Source of the DNA: Spirochaetales bacterium
GTDB taxonomy: Bacteria > Spirochaetota > Spirochaetia > SZUA-6 > JAFGRV01
Direction of reading: 5' to 3'
Length of the DNA: 39,480 bases
Assembly (NCBI GenBank): GCA_016930085.1
Contig: JAFGHO010000134.1
Coordinates: 1-39,480 of the forward strand
Below, piece after piece: positions 7,655 through 15,110 of the stretch. Numbering within the stretch: the stretch's first letter is position 1; each line of letters starts with the position of its first letter. The position numbers were made by a program, and so were the translations under genes. The notes below the pieces were generated by a model. The model worked only from the letters and a program-made list of their open reading frames with translations, was not told the origin of the DNA and did no database searches.

Positions 7655-9397
7655 TTATGACGGGTATATACCGTGCCAGAGTCCCTTGAAAAAGCCCATC
7701 GCGTTGGCCCCCAGATGCCGTGTGTTATAGCCGCCTTCCTGGACGACCAGTGTCGGAATGTCAAGACTCCCGATCATCTCACCGATTACCTCGAAATCTT
7801 CCTGTACGATTTCCCATGTGCCGACGGGGTCGCCCCGTGAAATATCGAGTCCTAAAAGCACGATGAGGAAGGAAGGATCGAACCGGGATATTTTTTCCAC
7901 CGCCCGCTTGATGCAATCGATATAGAGACCGGAATTTATATGTTCTGGAAGCGGCATATTTATATTGAAGCCCTCACCCGCGCCCTTCCCGGTTTCATCT
8001 TCAAATCCGGAAAAGAACGGGTATGAAAAAGACGGATGACCGTGAATTGAGATAGTGAGAACGTCATTCCGTTCGTAGAAAATATCCTGCTGGCCGTTGC
8101 CGTGATGATAGTCGATATCGAGCATTGCGACTTTACCGAGTCTGCTTAAAAAATGGGCGGCCGCCGCCGCCGAATTGAAATAACAGAATCCTCCGCAGGT
8201 ATTGCGTTCCGCGTGATGTCCGGGGGGGCGGACAAGGGCGTACGCGATTCGGTCGCCGCGGCAGAGTTCGTCCGCCGCGGTCAGCGCACAGTCGACCGCA
8301 CGTTTCGCGGCAATATAGGCATGTGCATTGATCGGAGTGAAGGTGTCTATGCAATAATAGCCCGCCCGGTAAATCAGGTCTTTCGGCAAATGCCGCTTGT
8401 TCCGTATGGGGAAAATATAGGGATAGACCGATTCGCCGGCTTTGAGATGTTTGCTGACATCGCGAAGATAATGGACGAACCGGGCCTCGTGAATCGCCGT
8501 GATATGGCGCTCGGAGAAATGCTTTACGGGTATTTTTCTGAAAAGGTTGCTCGTTAGGCATTTCTGCGCAATTCTCCTGATCCTGACCGGCACCTCGACA
8601 TACCCCCGTTCGCGTACATGATGGATATCGTGTTTGTCGTTTATGACAAGCACGATTTTTTTGTCTTGCGGTATCGTAACGGCGACCGTCACCGGGTGTT
8701 CCTCTTTTATATAGAGCGGTTTTCGTAATTGAACTGGCTCGTCTTTAAAAGAAGAAAGGACCGCATCGATATAATCAGGAGGACAGATACCCGAATATTT
8801 GCGTTCCAGGATGGCGGTGACAATAAGTTTCACAAGGTCGCGGTGAAGGACCGGGTGTTTGCCCAGTCCGTCAAAGACGAGATAAGGCGGATTGTCGTCG
8901 TCCGGCGTCAGCGGCGTTTCATACGTTGTGTTGGCAATGGGAAAAGCGCCGTAGCGTTCATAGAATTTCAGCCGCATCCTGTTCTGCTTGAGTAACTCGG
9001 GGTCTTTGCACAACTCAGGATCATCGGGAAGGCATTCGAAAAAGATTCCCAGCACTTTCAGGGTGAGTGCTTCTTCGCGGACTCGTTCGTAAAGTGCCCC
9101 GCCGATTCCTCTCCTCGCTACGGTTTTCGAGGTCGACACGTAATCGAGGTAGATGAAATTGAGATCGGGATAATGATTGAGAAGGGCGAATCCTTTTACC
9201 CTCCCCATCATATCATCGGAGACAAAAAGGATTGACCGGTATCTGTATTTCATGGGATTTTTCAGATGATCGGCAAGCGACGATACTTCGTAATCCGAGA
9301 TTGCCGGGAAGCGGTCCCTCAGGATAGCCGCGACCTGTGTCAGTGTGTGCTTGTTGACGGGGAGAATATCGTCGTAAATTCTTCTGATACGAAACAT
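7655..9397 (-). CDS. GNAT acetyltransferase fused to histone-deacetylase-family amidohydrolase
   Basis: From ATG 9397 the protein has 580 residues. Residues about 10-170 are a GNAT domain: FIYLDYVSTSKTVARRGIGGALY is the acetyl-CoA strand/loop, with the Q/RxxGxG/A-like ARRGIGG element. Residues about 255-575 are an arginase-fold deacetylase: RPPGHHAE with His394-His395, DIDYHHGNG giving zinc ligands Asp429 and His431, LLGLD with zinc ligand Asp518, and EGGY with Tyr557. All active-site residues are present, so it should be an active amide hydrolase of the acetylpolyamine amidohydrolase/HDAC type. The start at MFRIRR is chosen because a promoter lies at 9456-9483; the longer open frame would run upstream through it. 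It is divergent from lysine aminomutase, so an acetylated (beta-)lysine or polyamine substrate is plausible but only inferred. Confidence 0.88.
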   Translation of the reverse strand: MFRIRRIYDDILPVNKHTLTQVAAILRDRFPAISDYEVSSLADHLKNPMKYRYRSILFVSDDMMGRVKGFALLNHYPDLNFIYLDYVSTSKTVARRGIGGALYERVREEALTLKVLGIFFECLPDDPELCKDPELLKQNRMRLKFYERYGAFPIANTTYETPLTPDDDNPPYLVFDGLGKHPVLHRDLVKLIVTAILERKYSGICPPDYIDAVLSSFKDEPVQLRKPLYIKEEHPVTVAVTIPQDKKIVLVINDKHDIHHVRERGYVEVPVRIRRIAQKCLTSNLFRKIPVKHFSERHITAIHEARFVHYLRDVSKHLKAGESVYPYIFPIRNKRHLPKDLIYRAGYYCIDTFTPINAHAYIAAKRAVDCALTAADELCRGDRIAYALVRPPGHHAERNTCGGFCYFNSAAAAAHFLSRLGKVAMLDIDYHHGNGQQDIFYERNDVLTISIHGHPSFSYPFFSGFEDETGKGAGEGFNINMPLPEHINSGLYIDCIKRAVEKISRFDPSFLIVLLGLDISRGDPVGTWEIVQEDFEVIGEMIGSLDIPTLVVQEGGYNTRHLGANAMGFFKGLWHGIYPS

Positions 9398-9455
9398 CGA
9401 CACGTCCGTTTCCTCATTTTTGTCCGGCAAATCGCCGCCTTTCAAGCGTAGAAAA

Positions 9456-9483
9456 ATGTTATCTCTTTTTGGTAAAAAGTCAA
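9456..9483 (-). promoter_or_regulatory. Promoter of the GNAT-HDAC gene
   Basis: On the minus strand, TTGACT (9483-9478) and TAACAT (9461-9456) are 16 bases apart. The predicted start near 9449 gives a leader of about 50 bases containing GAGGA before the ATG at 9397. Confidence 0.55.
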
Positions 9484-9549
9484 GGGCATTGTATGCAGAA
9501 CCGCCTCCGGCGGCCAAAAAAAATATTGTTTTTTTTATACTTTTTTTTC

Positions 9550-9577
9550 TTGACATTGTTCGAAAAAGTATTATCTT
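9550..9577 (+). promoter_or_regulatory. Promoter of the lysine aminomutase operon
   Basis: TTGACA (9550-9555) and TATCTT (9572-9577) are 16 bases apart. The predicted start near 9584 leaves a leader of about 45 bases to the ATG at 9628. It diverges from the GNAT-HDAC promoter within about 100 bases, so the two could share a regulator. Confidence 0.5.
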
Positions 9578-9627
9578 TGCATCAGCCTGAAATTTTGCAG
9601 GTATATCCTCTTTCAAGGAGTGTGCAA

Positions 9628-10929
9628 ATGAGAAAGCACATTTACACAACGGAGGTCGATAAACCTCCGAATGAAGATGTAGAGCCTCCGGGTAATATGA
9701 GTGTGGCGTTCAAGCTATCACTCATAAGTCCAATCCCGCCTGTTTCCAAAAGCCCGCCTATAAGCAATGATATTGCAGGACAGTCTGTTGCATCGTTTCC
9801 CGTGAATGAAAAAGCCCGGCTATTCAGGGACCGGTTTTTTCCGTATGTTCCTGAGAAGGAATGGAACAACTGGCGCTGGCAGCTTAAGCACCGCATCATT
9901 GACATGGAAACGCTGAAGATGTACATCAACCTTTCGGATGACGAGGAAAAATTCTTCGCAACGGATGTGTCCGCTTTTCCAATCAGTATTACGCCCTACT
10001 ACCTCAGCCTCATCGATCCCGATGATCCCGGCCAACCGCTGCGCAAAGCGGTGGTGCCCGTCTTTTCCGAAAGACTCATCATGGATGTCGAAACCGAAGA
10101 CCCGCTTGGAGAAGATCTTGACAGTCCGGTACCCGGTATCGTTCACCGCTATCCGGACAGGGTCCTGTTCCTTGTCACGAATTTCTGTTCGACCTTCTGC
10201 AGGTACTGCACCCGTTCCCGTCTTGTCTCGAAAGAGACGGAAAAATGCAACCTCGCAGAACGCTGGGACCTGGGAATCGAGTATATCAAAAACAACCCGG
10301 CGATACGGGATGTCCTTGTCTCCGGCGGCGATCCCCTCACCCTTCCCGATGAACGTATCGAATGGATTCTTTCGCGCCTGAGAGATATCGATCACGTCGA
10401 GATTATCAGAATCGGGACAAAGATTCCGGCCGTCCTTCCACAGAGGGTTACCGGAGGTCTTTTGAGGATACTTAAGAAGTATCATCCGCTTTACATTAAT
10501 ATACACGCGATGCATCCGGATGAACTCACCCCTGAAATGAAAGCGGCATGTGCACGTCTCGCCGATGCAGGAATACCCCTGGGTAGCCAGACCGTTCTTC
10601 TTGCAGGAATCAATGATGACAGCGTGACAATGCGGGCGTTGATGCAGGGATTACTAAAAACAAGGGTAAAGCCGTACTACCTCTACCAGTGTGACCTCGT
10701 TCCAGGATCAAGCCATTTCCGGACACCGGTGGAAAAGGGACTCGAGATCATCGAGGGGTTGCGAGGACACACGACAGGTATGGCCGTCCCCCATTATGTC
10801 ATCGATGCGCCGAACGGGGGGGGCAAAATCCCGCTGTTGCCGGACTATTGTGTGGCCGTATCGGACAAGCATTACGTATTGCGCAATTACAAACACAATA
10901 CCTACGTGTATCCGGACAGGGTTTGTTAA
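9628..10929 (+). CDS. kamA: Lysine 2,3-aminomutase (radical SAM, PLP)
   Basis: The 434-residue protein interconverts L-lysine and L-beta-lysine with a [4Fe-4S] cluster, S-adenosylmethionine and PLP. The cluster motif is CSTFCRYC (Cys187, 191, 194). The PLP lysine is Lys400 in NGGGKIPLLP. The two aspartates that read the substrate side-chain amine in the clostridial enzyme (Asp293 and Asp330, with PLP Lys337) correspond to Asp356 and Asp393 here, and the spacings of 37 and 7 residues are identical. Glutamate aminomutases replace these aspartates, so lysine is the expected substrate. AAGGAG 7 bases before the ATG fixes the start; the upstream open frame crosses the promoter. It is the first gene of a plus-strand run ending at 15110. 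An alternative role is lysine fermentation, but no other kam/kdd genes are nearby. Confidence 0.92.
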   Translation: MRKHIYTTEVDKPPNEDVEPPGNMSVAFKLSLISPIPPVSKSPPISNDIAGQSVASFPVNEKARLFRDRFFPYVPEKEWNNWRWQLKHRIIDMETLKMYINLSDDEEKFFATDVSAFPISITPYYLSLIDPDDPGQPLRKAVVPVFSERLIMDVETEDPLGEDLDSPVPGIVHRYPDRVLFLVTNFCSTFCRYCTRSRLVSKETEKCNLAERWDLGIEYIKNNPAIRDVLVSGGDPLTLPDERIEWILSRLRDIDHVEIIRIGTKIPAVLPQRVTGGLLRILKKYHPLYINIHAMHPDELTPEMKAACARLADAGIPLGSQTVLLAGINDDSVTMRALMQGLLKTRVKPYYLYQCDLVPGSSHFRTPVEKGLEIIEGLRGHTTGMAVPHYVIDAPNGGGKIPLLPDYCVAVSDKHYVLRNYKHNTYVYPDRVC

Positions 10930-10975
10930 ACTCTGGGATACAGGATAGTTCTCGTTTGAGATAAGGAGAAGAACC

Positions 10976-12004
10976 ATGGTAATAGGAATTACCTATGATC
11001 TCCGGGAAGAGTATCTTGCTGAGGGATATTCCGAGGAAGAGACCGCAGAGTTCGACAGTTCCGCGACGGTCGACTCGATTGCCGATACGCTCGCGGTACT
11101 GGGCCACAATGTTGTACGGATCGGGAACGTCAGGGAACTGATGCGCCGGCTGACAATGGGAGAACGGTGGGATCTGGTGTTCAATATCGCTGAAGGACTC
11201 AGCGGGTACGCGCGTGAAGCGCAGGTTCCGGTAATCCTTGAAATGTATGATATACCCTATACCTTTTCGGATCCGCTTCTGCTTTCGGTCTGTCTGCACA
11301 AGGGAATGGCGAAACATGTTATCCGTGACTTCGGGATTCCTACGCCGGAGTTTGCCGTCGTGGGCGACGAATCCGATATCGATGATATAACGCTTCCTTT
11401 TCCACTTTTCGCAAAGCCCGTTGCCGAAGGAACGGGAAAGGGCGTTACCTCGTCGTCGATGATCAATTCGAAGGAAGAACTTGCCGTCCAGTGTGTCGGT
11501 CTTCTGCAAAAATTCAGGCAGCCGGTGATTGTCGAAGGATTTTTACCGGGAAGGGAGTTTACCGTCGGGATTCTCGGGACGGGGAAAAACGCGCGGGTCA
11601 TCGGCGTTCTTGAAGTCATATTGAATAACATGGCCGAACGGCACGTGTATTCGTATGTCAACAAGGAACAGTGCGAGACACTCGTCACCTACAGGCTTTC
11701 TTCCGATCTGAGCGCGGAAACTGCCGCAGCTACCGCGCTAAAAACCTGGCGGGCGCTCGGATGCCGCGATGCCGGAAGGATCGATCTCCGGCAGGATCGG
11801 GATGGGATACCTTGTGTCATGGAAATCAATCCGCTTGCTGGACTCAATCCGACCCATTCGGACCTTCCCATGATCTGTTCGTTTGCCGGGATGACCTACA
11901 AGGAGCTTATCGACGGTATCGTCGAATCGGCGTCTTGCATGAGAAGGGAAAGCGACAATATAGCTGTGCCACAGAGAGTGTCCCGGTGCTTTTCTGAACA
12001 ATGA
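10976..12004 (+). CDS. D-Ala-D-Ala-ligase-like ATP-grasp enzyme (first paralogue)
   Basis: The 342-residue protein has the ATP-grasp layout of D-Ala-D-Ala ligase: LVFNIAEGLSG at about 62-72, a central FAKPVAEGTGKGV nucleotide loop, IVEGFLPGREFTVG, and the C-terminal GRIDLRQD...MEINPLAGLNPTHSDLP magnesium/acceptor region. The N-terminal GGxSxE D-alanine motif of real Ddl enzymes is missing, and the loop reads EGTGKG rather than EGSS. I therefore expect an ATP-dependent amide ligase for another amino acid or small acid. AAGGAG lies 7 bases before the ATG, and the gene begins 46 bases after lysine aminomutase, so beta-lysine is a plausible substrate. A paralogue is at 14064-15110. Confidence 0.85.
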   Translation: MVIGITYDLREEYLAEGYSEEETAEFDSSATVDSIADTLAVLGHNVVRIGNVRELMRRLTMGERWDLVFNIAEGLSGYAREAQVPVILEMYDIPYTFSDPLLLSVCLHKGMAKHVIRDFGIPTPEFAVVGDESDIDDITLPFPLFAKPVAEGTGKGVTSSSMINSKEELAVQCVGLLQKFRQPVIVEGFLPGREFTVGILGTGKNARVIGVLEVILNNMAERHVYSYVNKEQCETLVTYRLSSDLSAETAAATALKTWRALGCRDAGRIDLRQDRDGIPCVMEINPLAGLNPTHSDLPMICSFAGMTYKELIDGIVESASCMRRESDNIAVPQRVSRCFSEQ

Positions 12005-12018
12005 AAAAAAGTGTGTAC

Positions 12019-12051
12019 AGTCTGCTGCGGCAGAAAATGCCGCGGCAGACT
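12019..12051 (+). terminator. Strong intra-operon hairpin (terminator or processing/attenuation element)
   Basis: The arms 12019-12032 and 12038-12051 pair over 14 bases with one G-T wobble and a GAAAA loop. The bases after it are AATTTCTTA, not a clean T-run, so complete termination is doubtful. It sits in the 204-base gap between the first ATP-grasp gene and the RtcB-like gene and could reduce or stabilise transcription of one half of the operon. Confidence 0.5.
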
Positions 12052-12208
12052 AATTTCTTAGAAAAATAATACCTTTTACACGAAAGAGTTTGAAAGAGCT
12101 GTACGGTGTGTGTCCGTGGTTTCAAGGAGTGTAATAGGCTTTAAATAGCTTAAAATGGCTTGAAATAGCGGGTAAAACGAATAATACTGGAAAAGGGAGG
12201 AGGCGGTT

Positions 12209-13405
12209 ATGACAAAAGAAGAAATGCTGAAGCGGGCAAAGCAGCATTGTTTTTTTATCGGATTGAACGACAGCGGCGCTGAGTTATGCAGGGCAAATTC
12301 GGTATACGGTATTGCCGCAATACATTATATCCAGGAGCAAATCGGTCTTCCTCCGGATGCCACCTTCATCACCACCCCGGATATGACCATAACAAGGAAT
12401 ACGACTAGATGGAAAAGCGGTTTCGGGTATGGTGGAAAGATTACCTGGGGAAGCGGTCATGACGAACTCGTTATCCTGAACACAAAGCCGAACGCGTGCG
12501 GAATGCTCGTGGGCGGACTCGAATCATTCCCCGCGATCAATACCCTGCTTGAACGGCTGCACCGGATGGACAAGGAAACGACCGTTATCGACGGGATAGA
12601 GGTCCAGTGGGATTTTTACAAAAGCAACCATTTTATCGATCTCTTTTTCGTCAAGCCGGTGGCGAAAACAGGTATCCGTCTGCCGACTCACGCGTTTATC
12701 ATTCACGGGTCCGCCGGTGAGTTCAACGGAGACAACGCAAGGGGATTCGGACTGTATTACGACAAGAGTAAAAAACTAAAGGAAATTGCCGGGGAGATTG
12801 ACACGCCGTTCGGACAATTTTATATTCTCACCGGAGACGCTGCGAAAAGGTATTATGAGACATATCAGGTAGCCGAAGCATTTTCAAAGAAAAAACGCGA
12901 GATGGCGGCGAAGATACTCTTTGAAAACTTTACGGTCATTTCGAATGAATGCCACCAGGGACTTTCTCACATGAATGAGATCCTCCTTGGATGCAATCAA
13001 TACAGAAACGACGACAGGCTTTTCCCACTCGCGCTGCGGGGGGACCTTCCCGCATATCTGGTTTCGGGATGCAGAAGTCTGAGACCTGAGTGCATCGAGT
13101 TGCTTGGATTCGAGAAGCGTTCAAAAAGGCTGGGTGTTTATGAGCGGCTTCTCAACGCGAACATCTTTCCGCACGGGGGCGGGTACAACCTTCCCGACGT
13201 GTTGAGTGTCAACAGAGTCATCGAAATCGATGACGAGAGGTATTTTGATGTCGAAATGCAGAATGACAGAGGTAAAAAAATCATTTCTGAAGTACGTGAA
13301 TTGCCCTATGAATACCGGGGAAGAACGGTCGTTCTCCGCGCCCTGGAAACGGGACTCATCGAGATTGTCGCGAAACTTATTCCGCAGTATGTCTTTAAAA
13401 TATAG
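12209..13405 (+). CDS. Divergent RtcB-like protein of unknown function
   Basis: The 398-residue protein is close to RtcB in length. I see the RtcB metal/GMP-site motifs in order: CGM with Cys97, SNHFIDL with Asn140-His141 (RtcB GNHF), IIHGSAG with His166 (RtcB HSGSRG), ECHQGL with His249 (RtcB HN), LPAYLVSG (RtcB PGSMGTxSYLV), and PHGGGYNLP with His322 (RtcB HGAGR, the guanylylated histidine). Spacings are similar to RtcB but not identical. The metal aspartate three residues before the cysteine appears to be proline, and the arginine of HGAGR is Tyr. It may therefore have lost or changed RNA-ligase activity. GGGAGGAGG precedes the ATG. The assignment is motif-based inference; the family may simply be unknown. 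Its place among amino-acid ligases hints at a metal-dependent metabolic enzyme. Confidence 0.5.
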   Translation: MTKEEMLKRAKQHCFFIGLNDSGAELCRANSVYGIAAIHYIQEQIGLPPDATFITTPDMTITRNTTRWKSGFGYGGKITWGSGHDELVILNTKPNACGMLVGGLESFPAINTLLERLHRMDKETTVIDGIEVQWDFYKSNHFIDLFFVKPVAKTGIRLPTHAFIIHGSAGEFNGDNARGFGLYYDKSKKLKEIAGEIDTPFGQFYILTGDAAKRYYETYQVAEAFSKKKREMAAKILFENFTVISNECHQGLSHMNEILLGCNQYRNDDRLFPLALRGDLPAYLVSGCRSLRPECIELLGFEKRSKRLGVYERLLNANIFPHGGGYNLPDVLSVNRVIEIDDERYFDVEMQNDRGKKIISEVRELPYEYRGRTVVLRALETGLIEIVAKLIPQYVFKI

Positions 13406-13444
13406 TATGCATTTATATCAAATCAGTGTTGAAAGGTGCGTTGT

Positions 13445-14089
13445 ATGGTGCTGAAACTCTCCCAACCTTTCCCGTCGCGATACGGGTTACCGGTTGTCAT
13501 CAATGTCGATACCGATATTTTTACCACCCCCTATCCCTCGGCCGGGTGTATCGGAACGGACTGCCGTGACCGTTGTTGTTCGGGCGGCGCGATCATGGAC
13601 ATCGTCGCATTCGAAAAATTAAAAAATTTCAGGGAATCCGAACGATTCAAGGATATCAAGTGGGATGATTTTGCGTTCGAAAAAGACCCCTGCTATCCCG
13701 GAGGAATCGGATGTTATACGCCGATAATGAACGGGATGTGTGTTTTCAAAAATCGTGAAACACGGGGATGCGGTATTCATTCGTTCTGTCTCGAGCGCGG
13801 AATCGATTACAGGGAATTGAAGTTTTTCGCCTGCTGCATTTTCCCCGTCGAAGTCAACAGAATCGGAGAAAAAACGAATGTCCTCACGGCCGGTTACGAA
13901 CTGAGAAACGAGGGGTTCGATATCGCCTGCAAGACCGAAGGCGGCAGTACGGTCTACGAAAGCGCGCGGGACGATATCCGTTACTATTTCGGGGATGTAC
14001 TCATCGATATTCTGGACGATATGAAGAACCGGCGTATCGCTTATACATTCGGGAGAAAATATAATGGCGGCAGTCGGGCTTACCTATAA
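13445..14089 (+). CDS. Cysteine-cluster protein, YkgJ / DUF3109-like
   Basis: The 214-residue protein is rich in cysteine: GCIGTDCRDRCCSGG near residue 30, then CYPGGIGC, MCVF, GCGIHSFC and ACCIFP. The CCSGGAIM segment and the later HSFCLERG / CCIFPVEV segment resemble DUF3109/YkgJ proteins, which probably bind a metal or Fe-S cluster; their reactions are largely unknown. ATG 13445 is preceded by GAAAGG at good spacing; a GTG at 13436 is a possible alternative. The gene overlaps the next ATP-grasp gene by 26 bases, so the two are likely translationally coupled and may act together. Confidence 0.7.
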   Translation: MVLKLSQPFPSRYGLPVVINVDTDIFTTPYPSAGCIGTDCRDRCCSGGAIMDIVAFEKLKNFRESERFKDIKWDDFAFEKDPCYPGGIGCYTPIMNGMCVFKNRETRGCGIHSFCLERGIDYRELKFFACCIFPVEVNRIGEKTNVLTAGYELRNEGFDIACKTEGGSTVYESARDDIRYYFGDVLIDILDDMKNRRIAYTFGRKYNGGSRAYL

Positions 14090-15110
14090 CCTCATCCATG
14101 AAGATGCGATCGGGGACAAGCCGATCGATTCCATCGCGGAGTTCGACACCGGGGAGACGATCGACGCATTGGTGAATGCCCTCAAGGAGGGCGGCCATTC
14201 GGTCATTCCCATCGAGGCGGACGAAGGTGTCGTCGAAACTATTAAACGGCACCGGAAACACCTCGATATCGTCTTCAATATTGCCGAAGGCATCAGGGGC
14301 GAATCGCGGGAATCCCATGTACCCGCGATTCTCGAGATGCTCGGTATCCCCTATGTCGGTTCGGGCCCCCTGACACTCGCCATCTGCCTGAGTAAGGTCC
14401 GGACAAAAGAGATCCTTCTTTCCTATGGTATTCCGACTCCCGCCTATCAGGTTTTCCGGTCGGGCCGGGACTCACTCGTCCGGAACCTGCGGTTTCCGCT
14501 TATCGCAAAACTATCGAACGAAGGTTCGAGCATGGGCCTTTCGTACGCGTCGGTTGTAGACAATGAAAAGGAACTGCGGAAACAGGTCGCCTCCCTTCTT
14601 GATATTTACCGCGAGCCCGTCCTGGTCGAGGAGTTTATCGAGGGACGTGAGTTCGGTATACCGATCATCGGCAATACCCCGCCCGTCTGCCTTCCCCTCA
14701 TCGAGTTTCATTTTCACGGTGAACGGTCGATTACCATTTTCGTACCTGACAAGCCTCTCGATATATTCTCGGAAAGGCAATACGAAATACCGGACCCGAA
14801 GGTGACGAATGAATGTCCCGCACGCGTCGACACGGAAACGGAAAGAATGCTGACAGGTCTCGCGATCCGATCGTACAACGCGCTGGAATGCCGCGACTGG
14901 TGCAGACTCGAGATCAGGGTCGACCGGGGCGGCAATCCGTTCGTAATCGAACTAAATCCCATCGCCGGAATCGATCCGACCTACCGCTTTGCGGTTTCCG
15001 CCGAAATCGCCGGGCTGCCGTATGAACGGCTTATCAATAAAATTTTACTCTTTGCAATGGAACGTTACGGCATGGATACCGGCTGGTACCGGGATGTGTT
15101 CGGCGGCTGA
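14064..15110 (+). CDS. D-Ala-D-Ala-ligase-like ATP-grasp enzyme (second paralogue)
   Basis: The 348-residue protein is clearly homologous to the one at 10976: EFDTGETIDALVNAL against EFDSSATVDSIADTL, VFNIAEGIRGESRESHVPAILEM against VFNIAEGLSGYAREAQVPVILEM. It keeps the classical Ddl-like loop AKLSNEGSSMGL, then VEEFIEGREFGIP and EIRVDRGGNPFVIELNPIAGIDPTY. The Ddl N-terminal D-alanine motif is absent, and the acceptor loop differs from the first paralogue (DPTYRFAV instead of NPTHSDLP), so the two probably use different acceptors. It starts inside the cysteine-cluster gene after a GGGAGA site and ends 16 bases from the convergent HAD gene. I infer it is a second amide-bond step in the same pathway. 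Confidence 0.85.
   Translation: MAAVGLTYNLIHEDAIGDKPIDSIAEFDTGETIDALVNALKEGGHSVIPIEADEGVVETIKRHRKHLDIVFNIAEGIRGESRESHVPAILEMLGIPYVGSGPLTLAICLSKVRTKEILLSYGIPTPAYQVFRSGRDSLVRNLRFPLIAKLSNEGSSMGLSYASVVDNEKELRKQVASLLDIYREPVLVEEFIEGREFGIPIIGNTPPVCLPLIEFHFHGERSITIFVPDKPLDIFSERQYEIPDPKVTNECPARVDTETERMLTGLAIRSYNALECRDWCRLEIRVDRGGNPFVIELNPIAGIDPTYRFAVSAEIAGLPYERLINKILLFAMERYGMDTGWYRDVFGG

Follow-up and report, generated by a model that had tools for sequence, protein, structure and literature searches.

A rare family of bacterial proteins with homology to RtcB RNA ligases and changes in the metal and nucleotide site

The RtcB-like gene and its neighbours

The window, i.e. the whole stretch of 39,480 nucleotides analysed here from a Spirochaetales bacterium, carries a gene for what we call the RtcB-like protein, together with genes for a KamA-family radical SAM enzyme, two ATP-grasp ligases and a Cys-rich protein (Table 1). 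The RtcB-like ORF starts with ATG downstream of a good ribosome-binding sequence (GGAGG-type); the true start of the KamA-family gene may lie further downstream than listed. The gene order KamA, ATP-grasp 1, RtcB-like, Cys-rich protein, ATP-grasp 2 is found in G000, G703 and G704, and copies of the Cys-rich protein with 52–55% identity lie between the two ligase genes of G702, G703 and G704, a position that is conserved in four genomes. A previous reading of the sequence alone placed the RtcB-like gene inside an amino acid ligase operon; the gene does lie among ligase genes, although a terminator-like hairpin with a 14-bp stem splits off the upstream ligase gene. The same reading correctly stated that no rtcA or tRNA repair gene is near this locus, where the neighbours are the KamA, ATP-grasp and Cys-rich protein genes, and a canonical archease-rtcB pair is found elsewhere in the genome.

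Table 1. Location of the genes, residues and loci described in the text. Residue equivalences are given with the numbering of Pyrococcus horikoshii RtcB (PhRtcB) unless indicated.
Feature	Position	Strand	Basis
KamA-plus-ligase cluster of the window	7655-15110
KamA-family (lysine 2,3-aminomutase-like) radical SAM enzyme	9469..10929	+	TIGR00238 over cut-off; TIGR03820 496 bits, below its cut-off
ATP-grasp ligase 1, D-Ala-D-Ala-ligase-like	10976..12004	+	PF07478
Terminator-like hairpin between upstream ligase gene and RtcB-like gene	12019..12051	+	14 pairs; fold -28.2 kcal/mol, z -7.1
RtcB-like protein, 398 aa	12209..13405	+	ORF; homologues; profile match to RtcB with controls
Asp58 = Asp65 (His-GMP formation)	12380..12382	+	Short-RtcB alignment; invariant in 10 sequences, distant clade included
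Pro94, replaces metal Asp95 (human Asp119)	12488..12490	+	Alignment; Pro in 7/7 window-type members
Cys97 = metal Cys98	12497..12499	+	Alignment, conservation
Asn140-His141-Phe142 = Asn202, His203 (metal), Phe204 (guanine)	12626..12634	+	Alignment; roles from PMC3973293
Asp144, replaces guanine-contact Glu206 (conservative change)	12638..12640	+	Alignment; lost in sensor-fused clade
His166 = metal His234	12704..12706	+	Alignment, conservation
Glu171, invariant family-specific acid (HxSAxE)	12719..12721	+	Conservation, 10-sequence set
His249 = metal His329	12953..12955	+	Short-RtcB alignment
His322 = guanylylated His404 (HGGGY/HGAGY)	13172..13174	+	Alignment, conservation
Tyr326, replaces HGAGR arginine (Arg408)	13184..13186	+	Alignment; Tyr in 7/7 window-type members
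Tyr369 = position 451 (Tyr)	13313..13315	+	Alignment
Lys397 = guanine-contact Lys480	13397..13399	+	Alignment; invariant in window-type members
Cys-rich protein	13436..14089	+	No family above cut-off (Pfam, NCBIfam)
ATP-grasp ligase 2, D-Ala-D-Ala-ligase-like	14064..15110	+	PF07478
Canonical rtcB, same genome	C117:68771-70078		569 bits
Archease, same genome	C117:68114-68527
HD-domain hydrolase adjoining an RtcB-like gene	L006:9731-10372
HD-domain hydrolase one gene away from an RtcB-like gene	L046:6764-7399
Possible remnant copy (L042)	G706:C24:10478-10576		E 0.001
Second-clade locus, G916	L050:4782-14118
Second-clade locus, G1145	L054:9332-3524
Second-clade locus, MT837290.1	L051:3133-6230

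The gene order common to G000, G703 and G704 favours a role for the RtcB-like protein in a beta-amino-acid or dipeptide pathway with KamA and the two ATP-grasp ligases, with a small molecule instead of RNA as its substrate. However, only three of the seven genomes with the gene have it within a KamA/ATP-grasp cluster, and in G702, G706, G003 and G296 it is outside; indeed, G702 has both a KamA-ligase cluster without the gene and the gene itself on another contig. Likewise, we found no RtcB-like copy adjoining the KamA-ligase clusters of G694, G695, G698, G699, G702, G707 and G720, some of which are on short contigs, and in the window the hairpin stands between ligase 1 and the RtcB-like gene. 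Such a pathway role is thus quite unlikely, and the close functional coupling to amino acid ligases implied by the sequence-only reading, consistent as it is with the three clustered copies, is largely rejected on gene-order evidence.

The cluster of KamA and ATP-grasp ligase genes is itself widespread (window and L065–L070), and those of the window and of G695 include a divergent GNAT-histone-deacetylase-like fusion gene. The neighbours of solo RtcB-like copies vary, and include HD hydrolase, PilZ and cNMP-binding genes. The HD-domain hydrolases found near the RtcB-like gene in G003 and G706, two distant genomes, are 60% identical to each other.

A rare family with few relatives

Neither the protein nor a 3-sequence profile retrieved anything significant when searched against PDB, Pfam, NCBIfam, PHROGs and PADLOC; in particular, the protein had no match to PF01139 at E values up to 1 in the Pfam search, and no RtcB match in NCBIfam. 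No relatives appeared in four scans of viral contigs, or in plasmids, either. Two weak matches, to CdiI (E 0.14) and to a phage minor head protein (E 0.04), were set aside as chance. In turn, we identified six standalone homologues showing 59–69% identity: one from a Sedimentisphaerales MAG (L002, 68%), from a scan of GTDB contigs, and five from whole-genome searches, of which one belongs to the same phylum as the window genome (G003, 59%) and four to the same order (G702, G703, G704 and G706, 63–69%). Together with the window protein, these make up the seven window-type members, whereas the 10-sequence set used below also includes a distant clade of sensor-fused proteins. The family is sparsely distributed, being present in two of 296 genomes of the window's phylum (its own genome counted), in one of 392 genomes from the phylum of L002 and, at E values up to 0.01, in six of 395 genomes of the class, one of these six hits being a distant sensor-fused protein. 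Genome G706 also contains, ca. 1.3 kb from its intact gene, a short stretch with a stop that resembles residues 16–48 of the RtcB-like protein (L042).

Profile comparisons indicate homology to RtcB

Comparison with hhalign of the 7-sequence profile and RtcB profiles from the window's phylum gave probabilities of 94.2–96.4%, while the maxima of 100 column shuffles were 0.4–9.2% and the reversed profile reached 0.1–1.2%. The 10-sequence profile matched the RtcB sets with 87–98% probability, its best values being 96–98%, and unrelated decoy families from the same loci with at most 1.3%. In hmmsearch, 17 distinct RtcBs (18 entries, with one duplicate locus) ranked ahead of the first unrelated protein, among 703. 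The hhalign signal is carried by the short (ca. 380–410 aa) and the mixed RtcB sets, and the long RtcB type alone gave at most 2.2%, except when the 10-sequence profile was aligned in global mode, which gave 81%. The profile check suggested by the sequence-only reading hence comes out at 94–98%, with controls of at most 9.2%, and the motifs it had listed, CGM (C97), NHF (H141), H-G-S (H166), C-H-Q (H249) and HGGGY (H322), do occur in RtcB order at those residues.

The lack of a Pfam match to RtcB could suggest a chance resemblance of motifs in an unrelated protein, and structure predictions lend this some weight. An AlphaFold model from three sequences (pLDDT 44) had the RtcB TTHA1785 (2epg) as the most probable match among those listed, at a level that is not significant (probability 0.51, E 0.45, TM 0.26). 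With nine sequences, in an alignment containing no RtcB and leaving out the MT837290.1 row, the model improved to pLDDT 67 and pTM 0.72, with a poor C-terminal third, and had no significant PDB match, RtcB included. Because neither model retrieved RtcB significantly, the RtcB fold is unconfirmed, and these fold searches count somewhat against it. Nevertheless, chance resemblance is very unlikely, because the matches of both clades to RtcB profiles, in which the active-site motifs align, score far higher than those of shuffled or reversed profiles and of unrelated families. Judged from these profile comparisons with controls, and from strict conservation in the seven homologues, the RtcB-like protein represents a rare, undescribed family homologous to the RNA ligase RtcB, and the same evidence supports the sequence-only reading of a divergent relative whose metal and nucleotide site has changed.

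The active site retains most catalytic positions but not the second-metal aspartate

Residue equivalences (Table 1) were derived from the hhalign alignment with short RtcBs, after checking the PhRtcB numbering; those of C97, H249 and D58 rest on this set, because in the mixed-RtcB alignment the regions of C97 and H249 are misaligned and D58 is unpaired. The metal ligands Cys98, His203, His234 and His329 are all matched by aligned and invariant residues, and the guanine pocket formed by F204, E206 and Lys480 is matched by F142, D144 and K397. Invariant positions in the seven window-type members include D58, P94, N95, C97, N140, H141, F142, D144, H166, E171, H249, H322, Y326, Y369 and K397, among others.

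Conversely, the metal ligand Asp95 and Arg408 of the HGAGR motif have no match, since P94 and Y326, present in all seven members, pair with them in the alignment with short bacterial RtcBs, as had been noticed from the sequence alone. Among the RtcBs compared, Asp95 occurs in 30/30 and Arg408 in 28/30. Because both of these defining residues were tested and are absent, the protein is not to be classed as RtcB itself, and the sequence data place the family in the RtcB superfamily, as a genuine but rare branch. Additionally, the VHRKGA and PGSMG segments of RtcB are not recognisable in the RtcB-like protein.

The family resembles RtcB (PF01139), especially the short bacterial type of ca. 380–410 aa, in having the same motif order (PD, C-G, NHF-x-[ED], H, H, HG-G, terminal Lys), and shares with it by alignment the metal Cys, three His, the guanylylated His and the guanine-contact Phe and Lys. 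It differs from RtcB in the Pro for the metal Asp and the Tyr for the HGAGR Arg, in being below Pfam detection, and in that its gene does not adjoin archease or rtcA. RtcB2-PrfH, described as an RtcB paralogue in an RNA-repair operon (PMC9223846), is a similar case in that the housekeeping operon is not the site of this additional RtcB-type gene; unlike there, we noticed no prfH homologue adjoining the RtcB-like gene. The ca. 470 aa RtcB homologues of L032 and L034 (G045 and G014, with a similar match in G026) lack, by alignment, the metal Cys/His and the guanylylated His, and are possibly inactive paralogues.

A possible guanylyltransferase unable to seal RNA

In the usual view of RtcB, a single conserved site catalyses a single reaction. 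The roles of its residues have been dissected by mutation. With Archease, the D95A mutant of P. horikoshii RtcB keeps guanylylation of the RNA 3'-phosphate but loses ligation; F204, E206 and K480 contact guanine, and mutants D65A, N202A and H404A are not rescued, so these residues are needed (PMC3973293). Similarly, human RTCB D119A shows weak guanylylation and no ligation (PMC10944509). By alignment, the RtcB-like protein retains the Asp and the Asn on which His-GMP formation and binding of the phosphate depend, and has lost the Asp required for a complete second metal site.

Our preferred reading, tentative and with somewhat less than an even chance of being correct, is that the RtcB-like protein may be a GTP-dependent guanylyltransferase unable to seal RNA, and not the RNA ligase of the cell, a proposal drawn from the sequence and from analogy with RtcB. 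The protein would bind GTP and one or two divalent metals, form a His322-GMP intermediate and pass the GMP on to a phosphate, an RNA end bearing a 3'-phosphate or some other phosphorylated molecule being the most likely acceptor. Because RtcB Asp mutants keep some guanylylation and not ligation, the sealing step would not be carried out; the protein would then guanylylate or process RNA ends (or a metabolite), leaving the RNA ligase role to the canonical archease-rtcB pair. The earlier suggestion of a repurposed GTP/metal enzyme is plausible, because the guanine-contact positions F204 and K480 are retained, E206 is present as Asp, and the ligation-critical Asp is lost, although it too is deduced from sequence, and the protein may be a repurposed RNA-end-modifying enzyme. 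Against the guanylyltransferase reading stand the loss of the HGAGR Arg, the unrecognisable VHRKGA and PGSMG segments, the unconfirmed fold and the loss of guanine contacts E206 and K480 in the sensor-fused clade; also, RtcB mutants can predict only imperfectly the behaviour of an enzyme whose evolution has accommodated Pro94.

Two other readings of the same site were considered. The protein could still function as a 3'-5' RNA ligase if its second metal site has been rebuilt, with the lost Asp replaced by Asn95 or by Glu171, an acid specific to the family and a possible substitute metal ligand; nearly all other catalytic positions are kept, and both residues are invariant, distant clade included. 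Yet the presence of Asp95 in all, and of Arg408 in nearly all, of the RtcBs compared, the failure of Asp95/Asp119 mutants to ligate (PMC3973293, PMC10944509) and the archease-rtcB pair already in the genome make this rather unlikely. Also unlikely is a derivative that has lost catalysis or serves as a sensor, and that would bind metal or a guanine nucleotide and exert control over its neighbours, as the loss of the Asp95 and Arg408 equivalents and the varied partners of solo copies would suggest: His322, Asp58 and the four metal ligands are invariant in 10/10 sequences, including the distant clade, a conservation that exceeds the needs of mere binding. If the guanylyltransferase reading holds, a family that keeps the guanylylation residues and has the sealing residue replaced would be a natural case of the two half-reactions coming apart, and would offer a direct test of the role of the second metal.

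A second clade is fused to sensor-type NTPases

The distant clade consists of two proteins of 1099 (G916) and 1067 aa (G1145), in which a STAND-like P-loop NTPase at the N-terminus is joined to an RtcB-like domain at the C-terminus, and of an 856 aa protein from a gut-derived contig (MT837290.1), with the same RtcB-like domain and a different N-terminus. In domain searches, the G916 protein exceeded the cut-off of NPHP3_N (36.8 vs. 24.8 bits), the G1145 protein exceeded only a general AAA cut-off, and the MT837290.1 protein had no NTPase-type hit. This clade matches the window clade with 98–99% probability in profile comparisons, and RtcB on its own with 77–93%. Its members keep D58, N95, C97, NHF, H166, E171, H249 and H322, and lack the metal Asp; because the contacts equivalent to E206 and K480 are also lost, GTP use may not be general in the family.

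The gene following the RtcB-like fusion encodes a histidine phosphatase in all three loci, and the pair is a candidate for an undescribed defence module. The C-terminal domain of two STAND-like NTPases being a distant RtcB-like relative, these proteins resemble the STAND/NACHT-type sensor NTPases of anti-phage defence; they differ from them in that an RtcB-like domain at such a position, paired with a histidine phosphatase, had no description in the literature searched, which comprised papers available without subscription. One speculative and doubtful scenario is that this new branch of the RtcB superfamily (N-x-C, NHF, HxSAxE, PHGxG; second-metal Asp lost) would be an effector that nucleotidylates or cleaves RNA ends, fused to STAND proteins and working with the histidine phosphatase in anti-phage defence, with standalone copies doing related RNA-end or nucleotide chemistry. 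If so, RtcB-like domains on defence-type sensors would constitute an unreported effector type in bacterial immunity. A YobI-type ATPase gene then follows in G916 and G1145, and G916 alone contains a Septu/PDC-M62-like pair as well, in a neighbourhood that looks like a defence island.
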